Below are positions 25,809-32,066 of a DNA stretch of 64,000 nt, piece after piece. The position numbers and the translations under genes are program-made. The notes under the pieces were generated by a model. It saw nothing but the letters and a program-made list of their open reading frames with translations, searched no databases and had not been told where the DNA came from. The number at the start of each line of letters is the position of its first letter. Position 1 is the stretch's first letter. Source of the stretch: Neisseria perflava (GTDB lineage: Bacteria; Pseudomonadota; Gammaproteobacteria; Burkholderiales; Neisseriaceae); assembly GCF_002863305.2 (NCBI RefSeq), contig NZ_CP136962.1, positions 558,001-622,000 of the forward strand, read 5' to 3'.

Positions 25809-25990
25809 TGAGGTTTTCCTCAAGATTATCTGAAAAAAATATGACTTACTTCTAAGTAAAATTTATTCCAAAACATCATTTACTTCACGCATTACTGACA
25901 AATAACACGCAAATCTAAGATCAAATTGAATTTTTCAGACGGCCTTTGCTGTTTGAATATTTTTAACCTATACCATACACACACTTTTTC

Positions 25991-27292
25991 ATGAATATTT
26001 TTGAAGCCTTACTATTATTGTGCCTGCTGATTGTCATTAGCGCGTTTGTATCCTGTTCCGAACTCGCGCTTGCTTCGGCACGCAAAATCAAATTACAGGT
26101 CATGGCGAAAGACGGCGGCGATACGCGTGCGCTTGATGTAATCAATATGCAGCAGCAGCCGGGCAGTTTTATTACCGTTGTCCAAATCGGATTGAACGCC
26201 GTCGCCATTCTTGCCGGTATCGTTGGCGAGGCGGCAATACGTCCTTATTTTGGCAAACTATTGGAGAATGCAGGCAGTTGGGGCAGCACAGTTGCCTCTT
26301 TGCTGACTTTCTCGCTGGTTACAGGCAGCTTTATTTTAATTGCCGACCTGATGCCCAAGCGTATGGCAATGACCCATCCCGAAGCGGTGGCGGTACGCAT
26401 TGTGCGTCCGATGATGTTTCTGATTTTTATCTTAAAACCCCTTGTCTGGGTTTTTGACGGGTTGGCAAACGCAATATTCAAACTCTTCAAAATCTCAACC
26501 GTTCGTCAGGAGCAGCTGACCTCGGAAGATATTTATGCCGTCGTTGATGCTGGTGCGCAAGCTGGTGTGTTGAAAGAGCAGGAACACTATCTGATTGAAA
26601 ACATTTTTGATATGCAGGAGCGCACGGTGACTTCCACCATGAGCACGCGCGAATACATCGCCTATTTCGATAAACACGACGACAGCGATACCGTGTTGGA
26701 AATGATGTCGGACAAACCGCACAACAAATTCCTCGTATGCGACGGCGACTTGGAACGCGTCATCGGCTATATCGAATCGCATACGCTGCTGACCTTATTT
26801 TTAAAAGAAAAAGATGTCCGACTGACCGACAAGCGTGTGTTGCGTAAAGCCTTGTTCATCCCCGACACGCTGTCGCTTTACGATGTCTTAGAAACCTTCA
26901 AAACTTCCGGCGAAGACTTTGCCGTAGTGGTGAACGAATACGCGCTGGTGGTCGGCGTGGTAACGCTGAAAGATGTGATGAGCATTGTGATGGGCGAGCT
27001 GGTCAATACCGAAGAAGAGCCGCAAATTATCCGCCGTACCGAAGACACATGGTTGGTGGATGGCGCCACGCCGCTTACCGATGTCATGCGTGCGCTGGAT
27101 ATTGAAGAGTTTCCCAATTCGGAAAACTACGAAACCATCGCCGGCTTTATGATGTATTCCCTGCGCAAAATCCCGAAGCGTACGGATTTTCTGGTTTATG
27201 CCGGTTATAAGTTTGAAATCATTGATACCGAAAACTTGAAAATTGACCAACTTTTGGTTTCTAAACAAGGAAATATGGTGGGGAAAATATAA
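25991..27292 (+). CDS. CNNM/CorC (HlyC)-family membrane protein
   Basis: A 433-residue inner-membrane protein. A DUF21 (CNNM) domain of three to four helices covers about 1-190 (SCSELALASARKIKLQVMAKDGGDTRALDV, here split by the membrane border). Two CBS domains follow (TSTMSTREYIAYFDKHDDS; ALVVGVVTLKDVMSIVMGEL), then a CorC_HlyC C-terminal domain (IIRRTEDTWLVDGATPL). Such proteins are linked to Mg2+/Co2+ efflux or homeostasis; the old name haemolysin is misleading. The start lies close after a DUS-rich gap, and the gene is followed 59 bases later by the ligase cassette. Confidence 0.9.
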   Translation: MNIFEALLLLCLLIVISAFVSCSELALASARKIKLQVMAKDGGDTRALDVINMQQQPGSFITVVQIGLNAVAILAGIVGEAAIRPYFGKLLENAGSWGSTVASLLTFSLVTGSFILIADLMPKRMAMTHPEAVAVRIVRPMMFLIFILKPLVWVFDGLANAIFKLFKISTVRQEQLTSEDIYAVVDAGAQAGVLKEQEHYLIENIFDMQERTVTSTMSTREYIAYFDKHDDSDTVLEMMSDKPHNKFLVCDGDLERVIGYIESHTLLTLFLKEKDVRLTDKRVLRKALFIPDTLSLYDVLETFKTSGEDFAVVVNEYALVVGVVTLKDVMSIVMGELVNTEEEPQIIRRTEDTWLVDGATPLTDVMRALDIEEFPNSENYETIAGFMMYSLRKIPKRTDFLVYAGYKFEIIDTENLKIDQLLVSKQGNMVGKI

Positions 27293-27351
27293 CAAGTCGC
27301 TGGGAATACTTGAAAAGAAAATTAAAAAATGAATAAAAAGGAAAAAATATT

Positions 27352-28155
27352 ATGACGACTGACGAACCTCAAAAATACGCCCGCAGCCTGCACGCGCCCA
27401 TCAGCCTCGGCACGACTTCAGACGACCGCTTTATGCCGCGCGGCTTTCTTTCATATTTTGCCTCACTGCCGAAATTGGTTTTAACCGAAAAATTAGATGG
27501 GCAAAACAACTGCTTTGCCGCACACGGCCTCTATGCCCGTAGCCATGCTGCACCTACTCAGCATCCGTGGGATAAACCTTTGCTGCAACGATGGCAGCAA
27601 ATTAAAGATGATTTAGGCGATCTCGAACTTTTTGGCGAGAATATGTATGGTATTCATTCGATTGCCTATTCGCAATTGGAAAGCTATTTTTACCTGTTTG
27701 CAGTCCGCCGTGGCGGACATTGGCTTTCATGGGAAGAGGTTAAATTTTATGCGCAGCTGTTTGATTTTCCGACTGTGCCAGAAATCCCCATTGTCCAGTC
27801 GCTTGCGGATTTCACTCAAAAATACGCCAATGAAGATATTGCTTTAGCGCAATGGCTTGCTGCTAATTTGGGAGAGCCGTGGACGGACAGCGTACAAACT
27901 GCCGGCAAGCTTGGCGGCTACGATCCGAACACAGGAGAGGCATGCAGTGAAGGTTTTGTTATCCGGAACGCCGCTGATTTTGCCACCAACAACGGCAAAC
28001 TGCCTGTTCAATCCAATGAATTCGACAATCTTTTCAAATTGGTGCGAGCCAAACATGTTAAAACCGACGTTCATTGGACGAAAACTTGGAAGCCTGCCCG
28101 TCTTATCGATTACGACAAATACCATTGGCAAAGCTGGCAGTTTCAGACGGCCTGA
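27352..28155 (+). CDS. RNA ligase family nucleotidyltransferase
   Basis: A 267-residue protein of the covalent nucleotidyltransferase superfamily. Motif I is TEKLDGQNN with the candidate AMP-accepting Lys47 (K-x-D-G), motif III FGENMYGIHS (94-103), motif IV EGFVIRN (200-206) and motif V FKLVRAKH (228-235). It resembles stand-alone RNA ligases such as T4 Rnl2-like and Deinococcus DRB0094/DRB0100-type proteins. It ends soon after motif V, so it lacks a large C-terminal domain. The next gene, 32 bases on, encodes an HD-phosphohydrolase/kinase, the end-healing partner expected for a sealing enzyme. The last codons (FQTA, stop) are written by a DUS. Sealing of cleaved RNA, perhaps tRNA, is inference. 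Confidence 0.85.
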   Translation: MTTDEPQKYARSLHAPISLGTTSDDRFMPRGFLSYFASLPKLVLTEKLDGQNNCFAAHGLYARSHAAPTQHPWDKPLLQRWQQIKDDLGDLELFGENMYGIHSIAYSQLESYFYLFAVRRGGHWLSWEEVKFYAQLFDFPTVPEIPIVQSLADFTQKYANEDIALAQWLAANLGEPWTDSVQTAGKLGGYDPNTGEACSEGFVIRNAADFATNNGKLPVQSNEFDNLFKLVRAKHVKTDVHWTKTWKPARLIDYDKYHWQSWQFQTA

Positions 28156-28187
28156 AGTCCAATTATCCAATAATAAGAAAGACAATT

Positions 28188-29321
28188 ATGTGGACATTCC
28201 CATATTACATACCCGGTCAACTTCCTGATTGGCAAGCCTTAGAACGTCGTTTCAGCTGGTTTGCCGATATGAAGGACGTTCCGCAAGACCCTGAGTGGCA
28301 TGCCGAAGGCGATGTATTTACGCATACCAAAATGGTGTGCGAAGCCCTTTTACAACTGCCCGAGTTTCAAGCGCTTGATGAGCAGGAGCAACATATTCTG
28401 TTTGCTGCCGCCATACTGCATGATGTGGAAAAACGCAGTACGACCAAGCGTGAAATAGAAAACGGTAAAGAGCGTATCGTTTCGCCGCATCACGCAAAAA
28501 AAGGCGAGCATACTGCCCGTACTTTACTGTATACCGAACTTGCCGCTCCATTTGCCGTAAGAGAAGCAATCGCCAAACTTGTGCGCTTGCACGGATTGCC
28601 TTTATGGGCAATTAACAAGCCTAATCCTGATCGAGCTGTCATAGCGGCCAGTTTGCAGGTTAACACTGCACATCTTGCCATGCTGGCTAAAGCCGATGTC
28701 CTGGGTCGTATATGTTGCGACCAACAGGATATTTTGCTGCGCGTTGATTTGTTTCGTGAACTCTGTGAAGAAAATGCTTGTTGGGGTAAGGCACGTACGT
28801 TCGCCAGCGATTACGGACGCTATCTCTATCTTAACGGCCGTAGCGAAATGCCGGATTATCAGCCATTTGATGATCAGACCTTTGAGGTGTACGCCATGTG
28901 CGCCATAGCAGGTAGCGGCAAAGACAGCTACATCAGGCAACATCTTGCCCATTTACCTATGCTGTCGCTCGATGAGATTCGCCGTGAGCGTAAACTCAAT
29001 CCCGCAGATTCCAAACATACCGCCGAAGCAGTGCGTTTGGGTAAAGAGCAGGCAAAAGAATACCTGCGAGCCCGTACGTCATTTGTCTTCAATGCGACCA
29101 ATCTCAACCGCGACTTGCGCAGTAAATGGCTGCCGATGTTTGCCGATTACGGCGCACGTGTGCATCTCATTTATTTGGAAGTGCCTTACACGCAATTACT
29201 ATCGCAAAACCGTAACCGCGAACATTCTGTTCCGAATGATGTGTTGCACCGCATGATAGAAAAGCTGGAAATCCCTGATTACAGTGAAGCGCATACGGTA
29301 GATTTTGTGGTCTCTTCTTAA
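28188..29321 (+). CDS. HD-domain phosphohydrolase fused to polynucleotide-kinase-like P-loop domain
   Basis: A 377-residue fusion. Residues about 30-200 form an HD domain: His46, the His78-Asp79 pair in AAAILHDVEKR, and Asp170 in LAKADVLGR are candidate metal ligands. From about 233 comes a kinase of the T4 Pnkp type: P-loop AIAGSGKDSYIRQH (Lys245), DEIRRERKL, and FVFNATNLNRDLRSKW with a lid Arg region (QNRNREHSVP). This is the architecture of Deinococcus DRB0098, a kinase/phosphatase for nucleic-acid ends. The start at 28188 (MWTFPYYIPG) is preferred because the longer frame overlaps the ligase gene. It would remove 3'-phosphates and add 5'-phosphates before ligation. A DUS hairpin ends the operon. 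Confidence 0.85.
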   Translation: MWTFPYYIPGQLPDWQALERRFSWFADMKDVPQDPEWHAEGDVFTHTKMVCEALLQLPEFQALDEQEQHILFAAAILHDVEKRSTTKREIENGKERIVSPHHAKKGEHTARTLLYTELAAPFAVREAIAKLVRLHGLPLWAINKPNPDRAVIAASLQVNTAHLAMLAKADVLGRICCDQQDILLRVDLFRELCEENACWGKARTFASDYGRYLYLNGRSEMPDYQPFDDQTFEVYAMCAIAGSGKDSYIRQHLAHLPMLSLDEIRRERKLNPADSKHTAEAVRLGKEQAKEYLRARTSFVFNATNLNRDLRSKWLPMFADYGARVHLIYLEVPYTQLLSQNRNREHSVPNDVLHRMIEKLEIPDYSEAHTVDFVVSS

Positions 29322-29343
29322 AAAGTAAAGGGTTTTTGTAAGT

Positions 29344-29383
29344 AGGCCGTCTGAAACAATCTAATGTTTCAGACGGCCTTTTT
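29344..29383 (+). terminator. inverted DUS pair, terminator of the ligase/kinase operon
   Basis: AGGCCGTCTGAAAC pairs with GTTTCAGACGGCCT and is followed by a T-run (TTTTTAT). Confidence 0.85.
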
Positions 29384-29419
29384 ATGAAATTAAAATTACT
29401 AGAGCTAAGGGGAAGGTCT

Positions 29420-29725
29420 TTATTCGCAATTTAAGCCTTTTGTTTTTTCAGCGAATGTATCCATGGCAATTTGGCACATGCGTTCACGTTGGCCTACGTC
29501 GGCAGCAGGCAGGATTTGGCGCAGGTATTTTGTGTTGTCACGTTGGAACGATGCTTTATCGCCTGCTTTTTGGTAACACGCATCCGCACGGGTAAAGTAT
29601 TGCTGGCAGATTTTCGGCAATTCTTCAAAGGACAAGGGTTTGCTTTTGTGCATGCCGTGTGCGGAGACGGAGAGGGAGGAAAGGGCGCACAGCGCGATGA
29701 TTAAGGTTTGGGAAATGGTTTTCAT
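29420..29725 (-). CDS. small secreted periplasmic protein with four cysteines
   Basis: A 101-residue protein. The signal peptide MKTISQTLIIALCALSSLSVSAHG is probably cut after SAH or nearby, with no lipobox at the cut. The mature part has four cysteines (KICQQYF, DACYQKAG, RMCQIAMD, LNCE end) suited to two disulfides and is mostly helical. It resembles small neisserial periplasmic proteins grouped as DUF5339, which I name with reserve. The ATG at 29723-29725 was chosen for the signal peptide; the frame is open 16 codons further up, into nadK. No function is known. Confidence 0.7.
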   Translation of the reverse strand: MKTISQTLIIALCALSSLSVSAHGMHKSKPLSFEELPKICQQYFTRADACYQKAGDKASFQRDNTKYLRQILPAADVGQRERMCQIAMDTFAEKTKGLNCE

Positions 29726-29751
29726 GGTAAGCCTATTTATTGAAGTGGTGT

Positions 29752-30642
29752 TTAAATCAATTGTTCGCCCCAATGCAGCTTTTGGCGCAGGGTTTTGAAG
29801 TATTGGTAATCGGTGGGATGGAGGACGCGCAAGGGGTTGTGATAGCGGCGGATGATGATGCGGTCGAAGTTTTGCACGTCGATATGGGATTGTCCATCAA
29901 AATGTGCGCGTGCGTCGCCACTTTTGGTAATGAGGATTTCGATTACGCTGGTGTCAGGGATGGCAATCGGACGATTGGTCATGGATTGCGGACAGATAGG
30001 TACAAGTGTGAAGGCGTGCAGACCGGCCTGCATGATGGGGCCTCCGGCGGCAAGCGCGTAGGCGGTCGAACCTGTCGGCGTGGAAATAATCAGGCCGTCC
30101 GAACGTTGGGTATAGACAAATTCTTGATTAATAAAGACTTCAAATTCAATCATTTGGCCTGCACCGCCACGAGACAGTACGGTGTCGTTGAGGGCGAGGG
30201 CGCGTTCGATGGTTTCGCCGTCACGAATGATGCTGGCTTCAATGAGGATGCGTTCTTCAGGCAGATATTTGCCTTCCAGTACAGGGCGGATGCCCTCAAC
30301 CATGGTGTCGCGTGAGATTTGGGTAAGAAAGCCTAAGTGGCCTTGATTGATACCAATGATGGGGACGGCGCGCGGGGCAACTTCGCGGGCGGCGGAGAGG
30401 AAGGTACCGTCGCCGCCGAGCACAATGACGAGGTCGCAGTATTTGCCCAGCTGGGCTTTGTTTACGGTTTCGCAGTAGGCGGAGTCTTGGATATAGACGC
30501 AGTGTTCTTCTACGCTCAATTCATCCAGATAGATGGTAAAGCCGTTTTTGCGCAGAAAAGAAACCAATGTGTGGACGGTATCTTGAATCTCGGGCGTATT
30601 GGGACGTGTAACGATACCGATGTTTTTAAATGGGCTTTTCAT
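29752..30642 (-). CDS. nadK: NAD kinase
   Basis: A 296-residue enzyme that phosphorylates NAD+ to NADP+ in the cytoplasm. The hallmark LVIVLGGDGTFLSAAREVA (the GGDGT loop) and the NE/D-type QRSDGLIISTPTGSTAYALAAGGPIM motif are intact, followed by CPQSMTNRPIAIPD. Length is usual for the family. The gene is read in the same direction as ubiJ, starting 27 bases after the ubiJ stop codon, so the two may be co-transcribed. Confidence 0.96.
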   Translation of the reverse strand: MKSPFKNIGIVTRPNTPEIQDTVHTLVSFLRKNGFTIYLDELSVEEHCVYIQDSAYCETVNKAQLGKYCDLVIVLGGDGTFLSAAREVAPRAVPIIGINQGHLGFLTQISRDTMVEGIRPVLEGKYLPEERILIEASIIRDGETIERALALNDTVLSRGGAGQMIEFEVFINQEFVYTQRSDGLIISTPTGSTAYALAAGGPIMQAGLHAFTLVPICPQSMTNRPIAIPDTSVIEILITKSGDARAHFDGQSHIDVQNFDRIIIRRYHNPLRVLHPTDYQYFKTLRQKLHWGEQLI

Positions 30643-30669
30643 GGTAGTAGGCCGTCTGAAATTAAGTGT

Positions 30670-31242
30670 CTAATCTATCCAGATATCGCGCTCGAGCCGA
30701 TCGAGGCGTTCGTTTAGGCGGGCAACGTCGTCACGCAGTTTGTCCACTTCTTCCAACCATGCGGCAAGCGTGGCTTGGTCGATAACAGGGGATTCGGGTT
30801 CGCGTGAAAAGTCACTGATTTGCTCGGCAATGCTTTTGCCGATTTTTTTCATGGTGCGGCCGATGTCGCCGGCGCGCGAACTGATGCTTTCTGCGGCCAC
30901 ATGACCGAATACACGCGCCAAATCTTCGCTCGGATAATAGCGCAGTCCGCCTAAAATAGGAAGGACGGACATGCCCAAGACCAAGTCGCCTTCGAGGCTG
31001 ATGTCGCCCACGCCGGGCTGGCCGCCTTGGAGGATTTTTTGGATGGCGCTGTTGTGGAATGTGATGTTGGTGTCGGCGGTTTCGTGTGCGGTTTCAAGAA
31101 AACCTTGTTCGCTGATGCGTCCGGTCAGTCTGAAACCGGTCAGGCTGATGCAGATGATGCTGCCTGCAAATTCAGACAGCTCGCGCTGTTGCTCTGGATT
31201 TTGCTGTATCAGGTGGTTGATAAGGGGAAATAGGGCAGACAT
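30670..31242 (-). CDS. ubiJ: ubiquinone biosynthesis accessory factor UbiJ (SCP2 domain)
   Basis: A 190-residue protein. An N-terminal SCP2-like lipid-binding domain (about 15-115; ITFHNSAIQKILQGG, GDISLEGDLVLGMSVLPIL) is followed by a helical C-terminal part with a heptad coiled coil (LAAWLEEVDKLRDDVARLNE). This is the layout of UbiJ, which with UbiK carries ubiquinone intermediates in a soluble Ubi complex. ubiE, another enzyme of this pathway, is in the window at 50560 but not linked. The nadK gene follows it closely. Confidence 0.85.
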   Translation of the reverse strand: MSALFPLINHLIQQNPEQQRELSEFAGSIICISLTGFRLTGRISEQGFLETAHETADTNITFHNSAIQKILQGGQPGVGDISLEGDLVLGMSVLPILGGLRYYPSEDLARVFGHVAAESISSRAGDIGRTMKKIGKSIAEQISDFSREPESPVIDQATLAAWLEEVDKLRDDVARLNERLDRLERDIWID

Positions 31243-31292
31243 GGTTTACTCTAAATGCCGTCTGAAACGGATTAATGGGTTGAGTCGCAATT

Positions 31293-32066
31293 TTACAGGC
31301 TTAGCCCGTCTGCGCAAACGGTATTTACAATTTTGCCGTTGCTTTTGTCATCAACGATGAAATCAGGAGCCGGTAGGCCGAGTTTGGCCGCTTCGGCAGT
31401 ATAAAATTCGGCCCGGCTTGGGTGGCGGGGTTCGACAATATTGCGGATACGCTTGCCGTCAGCTTGGCAGGCCGTCTGAAAAAGGACTTGGACGGCCAAG
31501 TCTTTATGAAGAATATTGACGGGTTGATTGCCGCCTTGAATGCGCATTTTTTGAACCAGCTTGGTAACGGGATGACGGTCGGCAGAATAAAGTCCGCCCA
31601 GTCGCAGTATGTCGATATGGGGTACGGTACTTTCAAGCAAGGTTTGCTCGACTGCGAGGATTTGACGGGCGGATTCGGTTTGCGGATCGGGCGGCGTGGT
31701 TTCATCGCATATGCGTGCTTGGTCGCTATACACGCTGGTGCTGCTGGTAAAGATGATGTGTTGTACCTTAGATTGCTCGGCAAGTTGAATCCATTTTTTC
31801 AGGGTATCGGCGTAATGGTTTAATGACGAAGGCGGGAGCAGGCAAAACCATGTCGGCTTGCTGATATGGTTTTGCCACAAGGTCGAACTGTAAAAAATAT
31901 CGTCTTGATTCAAATCGATGATGTCGAGTTCAATCGGCAGATTGATGTCGTCAGAGGTCAGGTTGCGTTTGACTGCGGCTACCTGACTGCCTTGCTCATA
32001 ACATTTTTGCGCCAGCGGCAGGCCGAGATAGCCTAAGCCGAGAATGGAAATATCGGGAAGGTGCAT
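31293..32066 (-). CDS. NAD(P)-dependent epimerase/reductase-like protein (YeeZ type)
   Basis: A 257-residue extended short-chain dehydrogenase. The N-terminal Rossmann motif is ISILGLGYLGLPLAQKCYEQG (GxGxxG). A TSSTSVYSDQ stretch resembles the SDR active-site region, with Ser and Tyr present but the usual YxxxK not clear. LRLGGLYSADRHPV is typical of the YeeZ-like group. The substrate is unknown. A DUS occurs within the coding region. It stands alone between ubiJ and the TetR gene, with a DUS hairpin upstream. Confidence 0.7.
   Translation of the reverse strand: MHLPDISILGLGYLGLPLAQKCYEQGSQVAAVKRNLTSDDINLPIELDIIDLNQDDIFYSSTLWQNHISKPTWFCLLPPSSLNHYADTLKKWIQLAEQSKVQHIIFTSSTSVYSDQARICDETTPPDPQTESARQILAVEQTLLESTVPHIDILRLGGLYSADRHPVTKLVQKMRIQGGNQPVNILHKDLAVQVLFQTACQADGKRIRNIVEPRHPSRAEFYTAEAAKLGLPAPDFIVDDKSNGKIVNTVCADGLSL

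Follow-up and report, generated by a model that had tools for sequence, protein, structure and literature searches.

In a 64,000-nucleotide stretch of the Neisseria perflava contig NZ_CP136962.1 (hereafter, the window), we found two neighboring genes on the forward strand that together form the cassette described here. The upstream gene encodes a predicted RNA ligase-type nucleotidyltransferase (the ligase), and the downstream gene encodes a predicted HD phosphohydrolase fused to a predicted P-loop polynucleotide 5′-kinase (HD-Pnk; Table 1). The ligase open reading frame (ORF) has the length and the KxDG motif that an initial annotation, made from the DNA letters alone, had ascribed to it. A mechanical ORF list opens HD-Pnk at TTG 28074; because homology begins at the later ATG given in Table 1, we take this ATG as the start, which leaves the 32-base gap between the ligase and the fusion protein that the annotation had described.

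Table 1. Features of the cassette and its surroundings (window coordinates).
Feature	Position	Strand	Remarks
Ligase gene	27352..28155	+	267 amino acids (aa), ATG start; predicted ATP-dependent RNA ligase-type nucleotidyltransferase; PF09414, phrog_24030, Foldseek
Motif I, K47-L-D-G50	27490..27501	+	K47 is the predicted adenylated lysine; invariant in relatives
HD-Pnk gene	28188..29321	+	377 aa; predicted HD phosphohydrolase (~1-215) and P-loop polynucleotide 5′-kinase (~230-377)
HD doublet, H78-D79	28419..28424	+	kept in 24/24 relatives
Kinase P-loop, G242-S-G-K245-D246	28911..28925	+	K245-D246 kept in 24/24 relatives
AG-type DNA uptake sequence (AG-DUS), 12-mer	28142..28153	-	covers the final codons of the ligase gene and the opening base of the stop codon
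Inverted DNA uptake sequence pair, probable transcription terminator	29344..29379		AG-DUS at 29344 (+) and 29368 (-)
Stretch missing from cassette-free relative G035	27293..29339		blastn, flanks of L150

The ligase matches the RNA_ligase family PF09414 in Pfam (E 8e-23, 81.8 bits, cut-off 27) and the RNA ligase family phrog_24030 in PHROGs (E 5e-24), and 1814 relatives at E 0.001 or better were found among the candidates scored. Nucleotidyltransferase motifs I, III/IIIa, IV and V, numbered as we take them to correspond, are all present. K47-L-D-G, F94-G-E96, E200-G and K229 are invariant across 23 aligned ligases and also hold in a wider 12-row alignment; they are kept in Deinococcus, Pseudomonas, Variovorax, Proteus, Bacteroidales genome G537 and cyanobacterial homologues, the exceptions being the F that precedes GE and the L in KLDG. 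The conserved tail beyond motif V is only ~35 residues long in both alignments and in the remote homologues, so the ligase has no C-terminal domain of the size seen in Rnl1 or Rnl2, as the initial annotation had noted, and the Rnl2-specific C-terminal domain of the T4 gp24.1 type is absent. A sequence search of the PDB returned nothing with the ligase sequence and only chance hemocyanin matches with the ligase alignment, and we therefore compared folds. In Foldseek, the best match of the ligase model is T4 Rnl2 (2hvr/1s68, E 7e-7, TM-score 0.4-0.5). Ranks 1-19 are all RNA or tRNA ligases (T4 Rnl2, followed by RNA ligases from Naegleria and archaea and by a tRNA ligase), and the first entry named as a DNA ligase is found at rank 20.

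The kinase half of HD-Pnk matches PF13671 AAA_33 (E 1e-19, 71.4 bits), and in Foldseek its fold matches the polynucleotide kinases (Pnk) of C. thermocellum, T4 and mammals; the AF2 model of the protein is confident, with a mean predicted local distance difference test score (pLDDT) of 89.9. Support for the HD half comes from a match to NCBIfam TIGR00277 HDIG (26.5 bits, cut-off 27.6), from the 50 bits at which the Deinococcus homologue matches the HD family PF01966, and from invariant H38, H46, H78-D79, H102, H135 and D170. Across 24/24 aligned proteins K245, D246, D262, R311 and R344 are likewise invariant. The ligase lysine, the HD doublet and the P-loop lysine singled out for mutation in the initial annotation (Lys47, His78/Asp79, Lys245) are indeed where it placed them and are kept in every aligned relative. 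The window protein has D directly behind the P-loop lysine, whereas this residue is S in T4 Pnk, N in a P. aeruginosa plasmid homologue and S in D. radiodurans. The protein aligns with D. radiodurans DRB0098 in the order N-terminal HD, C-terminal P-loop polynucleotide kinase; residues 33-375 are spanned by phrog_6931, for which PHROGs gives function not known. HD-Pnk relatives at E 0.001 or better numbered 2537 among the candidates scored.

Conserved co-occurrence of the two genes, which the initial annotation had made a test of its own proposal, is borne out in 45 of 56 ligase loci from named genomes, where a same-strand HD-Pnk scoring at least 250 bits lies within 1.5 kb downstream of the ligase; the Cardiobacterium pair is among them, with its HD-Pnk split over two frames. 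At the other 11 loci, HD-Pnk is weak or broken (L029, L063), is not found in the stretch examined (L022, L035, L058, L061, although L058, a Neisseria metagenome-assembled genome (MAG), has one ~9 kb distant), the sequence ends no more than 300 bases past the ligase (L057, L064, L056, the last with HD-Pnk on the opposite strand ~4 kb upstream), or no ligase ORF was found (L065, L066). When we measured the gap between the genes at 39 loci, the window included, we found 19 overlaps (14 of 4 bases), 12 gaps of 2-36 bases and 8 longer ones. HD-Pnk is accompanied by a neighboring predicted ATP-dependent ligase across phyla, as the two genes lie near or adjoin one another also on Pseudomonas and Variovorax plasmids, in Deinococcus, in Sphaerospermopsis, in a Proteus record and in a huge phage. 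Protein distance matrices of ligase and HD-Pnk agree (Mantel r 0.87, 46 loci, 0/2000 permutations as high). Both genes are under strong purifying selection, with an NG86 dN/dS (ratio of nonsynonymous to synonymous substitution rates) of ~0.03 to 0.04 for the window against L011-L013, a rough value since dS exceeds 1. Beyond these two genes, no neighbor cluster occurs in more than 7 of the 61 loci L011-L071, and the most widespread one (7/61) looks by eye like an ABC transporter.

To describe the distribution of the cassette, we used 36 genomes of the window's genus (G001-G036) and 24 other genomes of the order. In the genus, the ligase is present in 8/36, HD-Pnk in 7/36 and an intact neighboring pair in 6/36; neither gene was found in any of the 24 other genomes. 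The window's site, behind a gene of the CNNM family, is common to G001, G027, G028, G030 and G032 and to a remnant in G010, and the copy in G008 is at a different chromosomal site. Genome G035 (L150) matches the window at 25910-27292 and 29340-31300 with ~95% identity and thus has a clean empty site, in which 450 bases with no blastn match to the cassette lie between the flanks. G001 (with the cassette) and G035 (without it, at the same site) are natural comparison strains.

The ligase of the window is 58-70% identical to named Bacteroidota loci of a closer clade and 45-47% identical to a remoter clade, and in a ligase tree with an outgroup chosen by hand, Neisseriaceae, Cardiobacterium and Lonepinella are nested inside mostly Bacteroidota branches. 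The cassette is mobile: besides the clean empty site in G035, a near-identical neisserial copy is present in Rothia aeria AP017895.1 (Actinomycetota; L014 5780-9320), with DNA identity to L011-L013 of up to 97.2% in the ligase region and 89-93% in HD-Pnk; this copy carries pieces of neisserial flank, one uptake sequence and a leucine-rich-repeat gene between ligase and HD-Pnk. Because of it, movement of such cassettes between phyla is suggested, although the copy may be due to mis-assembly or contamination of the AP017895 record. In the window, the ligase gene ends in what we take to be an AG-type DNA uptake sequence and an inverted pair lies behind the cassette; by these marks the cassette appears to be dressed for neisserial transformation.

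The prfH gene was first seen beside four relatives (L025, L060, L061, L063), and its association with the cassette was then tested. An even draw of 296 Bacteroidota genomes held too few ligase carriers (4/296, one marginal and one the centre of the draw, G061), and the test was therefore made on three other sets: genomes of the window's genus, genomes of Bacteroidales, and the carriers themselves. Both in this genus and in Bacteroidales, the cassette usually co-occurs with RtcB2-PrfH. In the genus, PrfH is over its curated cut-off in 13/36 genomes: 8/8 with the ligase as compared to 5/28 without it (Fisher p 4e-5). It was over the cut-off in none of the 24 other genomes of the order, and neither the cassette nor PrfH is present in G035, which falls in one clade with G001, G010 and G027. 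The initial annotation had suggested looking for Rtc in cassette genomes, and RtcB was found there, with rtcB beside prfH in 8/8 carriers of the genus and in 13/13 PrfH-positive genomes overall (full length in 12, truncated in G011, and with one gene between the two in G008 and G012). A separate RtcB search covered 23 of the 36 genomes and found the protein in 7, which are exactly the PrfH-positive ones among the 23. RtcB2-PrfH is unlinked to the cassette in this genus and lies at another chromosomal place; in the window itself there is no credible rtcB or prfH, only one chance match at E 0.96.

Of 247 Bacteroidales genomes, a clear ligase is present in 4 and PrfH (E 1e-50 or better) in 8, with PrfH in 4/4 carriers and in 4/243 other genomes (p 5e-7, or 1e-5 without the centre genome G065). 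Since G065 came from the discovery set and the PrfH of G382 and G387 had been seen beforehand, only G537 is wholly new; a marginal fifth ligase match (G620, 29.6 bits) has no PrfH. Of the 56 loci, 49 served as carriers from beyond the genus (L011-L014, L058, L065 and L066 were omitted); 19/49 have PrfH over the cut-off as compared to 21/296 in the Bacteroidota draw (p 4e-8), a comparison that ignores phylogeny, is unmatched in composition and completeness, and has G061 in both sets. A PrfH cut at a contig edge in L025 (165 bits) is additional to the 19. In the literature searched, judged by search listings that were partly incomplete, we did not meet this association.

In some Bacteroidota, the two modules share a cluster. 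G537 (L238 2263-11782) has, in one direction, rtcB, an RNase_T exonuclease gene, prfH, kptA, ligase and HD-Pnk, followed by a NUDIX/NrtR gene, one gene, a NADAR gene, an ADP-ribosylglycohydrolase gene, one ORF and a macro gene, and this locus appears by its gene content to be an RNA-repair and ADP-ribose island. In L060, the order is rtcB, prfH, an ATPase gene (with Peptidase_M41 and ClpB-D2 matches), kptA, TatD, ligase and HD-Pnk. L063 has rtcB, prfH and kptA with two other ORFs between, then a broken ligase and HD-Pnk; L061 has rtcB, prfH and ligase with no HD-Pnk, and the whole-genome match to its ligase crosses a TAG. L062 carries ligase, HD-Pnk, a TROVE match that narrowly misses the cut-off, a gene resembling ArfB and, at 1343 bits, a bacterial Pnkp, and L025 has its PrfH fragment near the ligase. 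Ligase identity to the window is 45-47% for L060-L063 and 66% for L025.

Some observations concern the RtcB2-PrfH loci themselves. Two genomes of the genus (L110 7423-8115, L108 5996-6682) have, between rtcB2 and prfH, an unnamed gene whose product starts with MKIISK, and in one Bacteroidetes (L025 571-1158) a weak relative of this family (E 5e-5) separates prfH from the ligase; the two members scanned (L110, L025) have no Pfam match. In G011 (L114 7703-8005), a genome without the ligase cassette, rtcB2 is truncated and prfH remains.

Taken together, we think it likely that the pair is a classical RNA end-healing and end-sealing cassette that mends toxin-cut tRNA or rRNA, and that it is a horizontally moved, conditionally kept accessory. 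The HD domain would remove a 2′,3′-cyclic phosphate or 3′-phosphate to leave a 3′-OH, the kinase domain would phosphorylate the 5′-OH using a nucleoside triphosphate, and the ligase, adenylated on K47, would join the 3′-OH to the 5′-phosphate. The likeliest substrates would be tRNA or rRNA cut by ribonuclease toxins, such as competitor toxins, anticodon nucleases or colicin-E3-like enzymes. What the computation shows is the anatomy of the pair, its co-divergence and pairing, the selection on it, its mobility and its link with PrfH; the enzyme activities, the RNA substrate and the toxin setting are inferences. The initial annotation had proposed an RNA/DNA cassette; because of the ligase fold ranking and the RNA-repair neighbors of relatives in Bacteroidota (RtcB, PrfH, KptA, RNase_T), RNA is probably the target, and the DNA half of that proposal is the less likely one. 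Since the cassette often shares genomes with a ribosome-repair and rescue system, toxin-damaged translation machinery is hinted at as what it repairs. Passages of PMC9223846 describe RtcB2-PrfH as guarding E. coli against colicin E3 and not against tRNA-targeting toxins. The association offers a concrete, cheap test of what healing and sealing cassettes repair.

A number of findings weigh against this reading. The window's HD-Pnk matches PF01966 at only E 1e-3 and 19.9 bits, under the cut-off of 22, and the ligase model is only fair (mean pLDDT 70.6), with TM-scores of just 0.4-0.5. In two of the eight carriers of the genus the cassette is broken: what is left of it in G010 is rearranged, with part of the ligase inverted and HD-Pnk gone (L153 2542-4352) and with rtcB2-prfH retained elsewhere, and in G012 the ligase is split and far from HD-Pnk. 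A tree of 35 genomes of the genus gives only three supported independent contrasts, of which, averaged over 200 pairings, PrfH follows the ligase in 2.5 and runs counter to it in 0; the relatedness-aware sign test is not significant (p 0.25). Outside the genus, 30/49 carriers are without PrfH over the cut-off; among Saprospiraceae carriers this holds for 14/15, the exception being the MAG of L019 (183 bits), and the three genomes of the Bacteroidota draw with a more than marginal ligase match (G061 included) all have no PrfH. Finally, according to passages of PMC1997131, an intrinsic 3′-phosphatase of DRB0098 could not be demonstrated, the H81A and D82E changes caused no drop in this activity, and DRB0100 ligated no DNA, alone or with its operon partners.

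This last result counts equally against DNA repair as the function, in which HD-Pnk would heal 3′-phosphate/5′-OH DNA breaks caused by oxidation or radiation and either the ligase or the cell's LigA would seal them. The D. radiodurans HD-Pnk is said to aid resistance to radiation and mitomycin C, and on a Pseudomonas megaplasmid the pair is found in reversed order near umuD, a Y-family polymerase gene and recX. DRB0098 is a 5′-kinase on DNA (PMC1997131, passages that leave RNA substrates open), and passages of PMC1997131 and PMC11833690 describe the DRB ligase gene and operon as induced by irradiation or DNA damage. However, the window ligase belongs to PF09414 and groups with RNA ligases by fold, the window flanks are not DNA repair genes, and several Bacteroidota neighbors are PrfH, RtcB and KptA, although L060 also has the TatD gene, which is of a DNase family. 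We consider DNA repair unlikely. It is very unlikely, in our judgment, that these are phage-related conflict genes (defence or counter-defence) that act in infection only, mending tRNAs cut by anticodon nucleases or reversing the cell's abortive response. Ligase relatives are present in 23 phage records, several of which are duplicates and all of which exceed 200 kb, and in one 462-kb phage (LR756500) ligase and HD-Pnk lie side by side; the ligase is matched by at least five IMG/VR contigs (in one case over only 46 residues), one of them with a divergent HD-Pnk, and the Rothia aeria cassette is near a cytosine methylase gene and an AAA ATPase gene. In contrast, most copies in the genus lie between the same chromosomal flanks, and among the known anti-phage systems of PADLOC the ligase matched none and HD-Pnk matched Cas10_Id alone, at E 0.012.

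Returning to the repair of toxin-cut RNA, a more speculative extension, which we hold only tentatively, is that the cassette is the second arm of one ribosome/tRNA-repair system of which RtcB2-PrfH is the other, and that oral bacteria pass this arm between phyla. PrfH would free a ribosome with a cleaved decoding centre and RtcB2 would reseal fresh 3′-phosphate/5′-OH breaks; HD-Pnk and ligase, joined by KptA in the fullest Bacteroidales version, would rescue breaks whose ends have already been trimmed or dephosphorylated. RtcB2-PrfH (PMC9223846) has the same proposed enemy, RNA-cleaving toxins, and is often in the same genomes and, in some Bacteroidota, in the same cluster; RtcB differs in that it seals 3′-phosphate or cyclic phosphate to 5′-OH directly, and its module is elsewhere on the chromosome in the window's genus.

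This kind of cassette is already known, and the neisserial pair is a further member of it; judged by listings, the literature searched held no work on the pair in Neisseria. Munir and Shuman reportedly described a Runella slithyformis HD-Pnk with the same HD-then-Pnk order as the window protein, with homologues in 11 phyla and often beside a putative ATP-dependent ligase. The phosphatase is of the HAD or calcineurin-like type in T4 Pnkp and bacterial Pnkp1 systems, whereas it is predicted to be HD in the window pair. T4 Rnl2 is the best fold match of the window ligase, yet the latter is without its C-terminal domain. The plan is otherwise that of T4 Pnkp with Rnl1/Rnl2 and of bacterial Pnkp1-Rnl-Hen1 (PMC4411300): heal both ends, then seal with ATP. 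The initial annotation had pointed to the Deinococcus radiodurans DRB0100-DRB0099-DRB0098 operon as related, and we found it to be homologous but distant. It likewise has, on one strand, a small PF09414 K-x-D-G ligase and an HD-P-loop kinase fusion whose motifs align; however, identity to the window proteins is only 29.8% (ligase) and 28.9% (HD-Pnk), and a PARG-type gene lies between its ligase and HD-Pnk that is absent from the window. Bacterial PARGs, DRB0099 among them, strip ADP-ribose from 5′-phosphate ends of RNA or DNA, according to passages of PMC11833690. Jumbo phage ATP-grasp ligases accompany kinases and phosphatases, the latter HD-like in a few cases (PMC7824862, in part), and the passages of PMC9503650, PMC1586002 and PMC11090510 do not describe this pair.

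In the window, the cassette is flanked by the CNNM-family gene, a weak DUF5339-like ORF and an NAD kinase gene, and Rfam and tRNA scans gave nothing relevant. Among viral contigs, L067-L070 and L149 bear the ligase, and L068-L070 show no HD-Pnk in the stretch examined. The ligase of L035 (5543-6349), from a MAG labelled 'Deltaproteobacteria', groups with that of viral contig L068 and their neighbors look similar by eye, and for these reasons the L035 contig may be phage.

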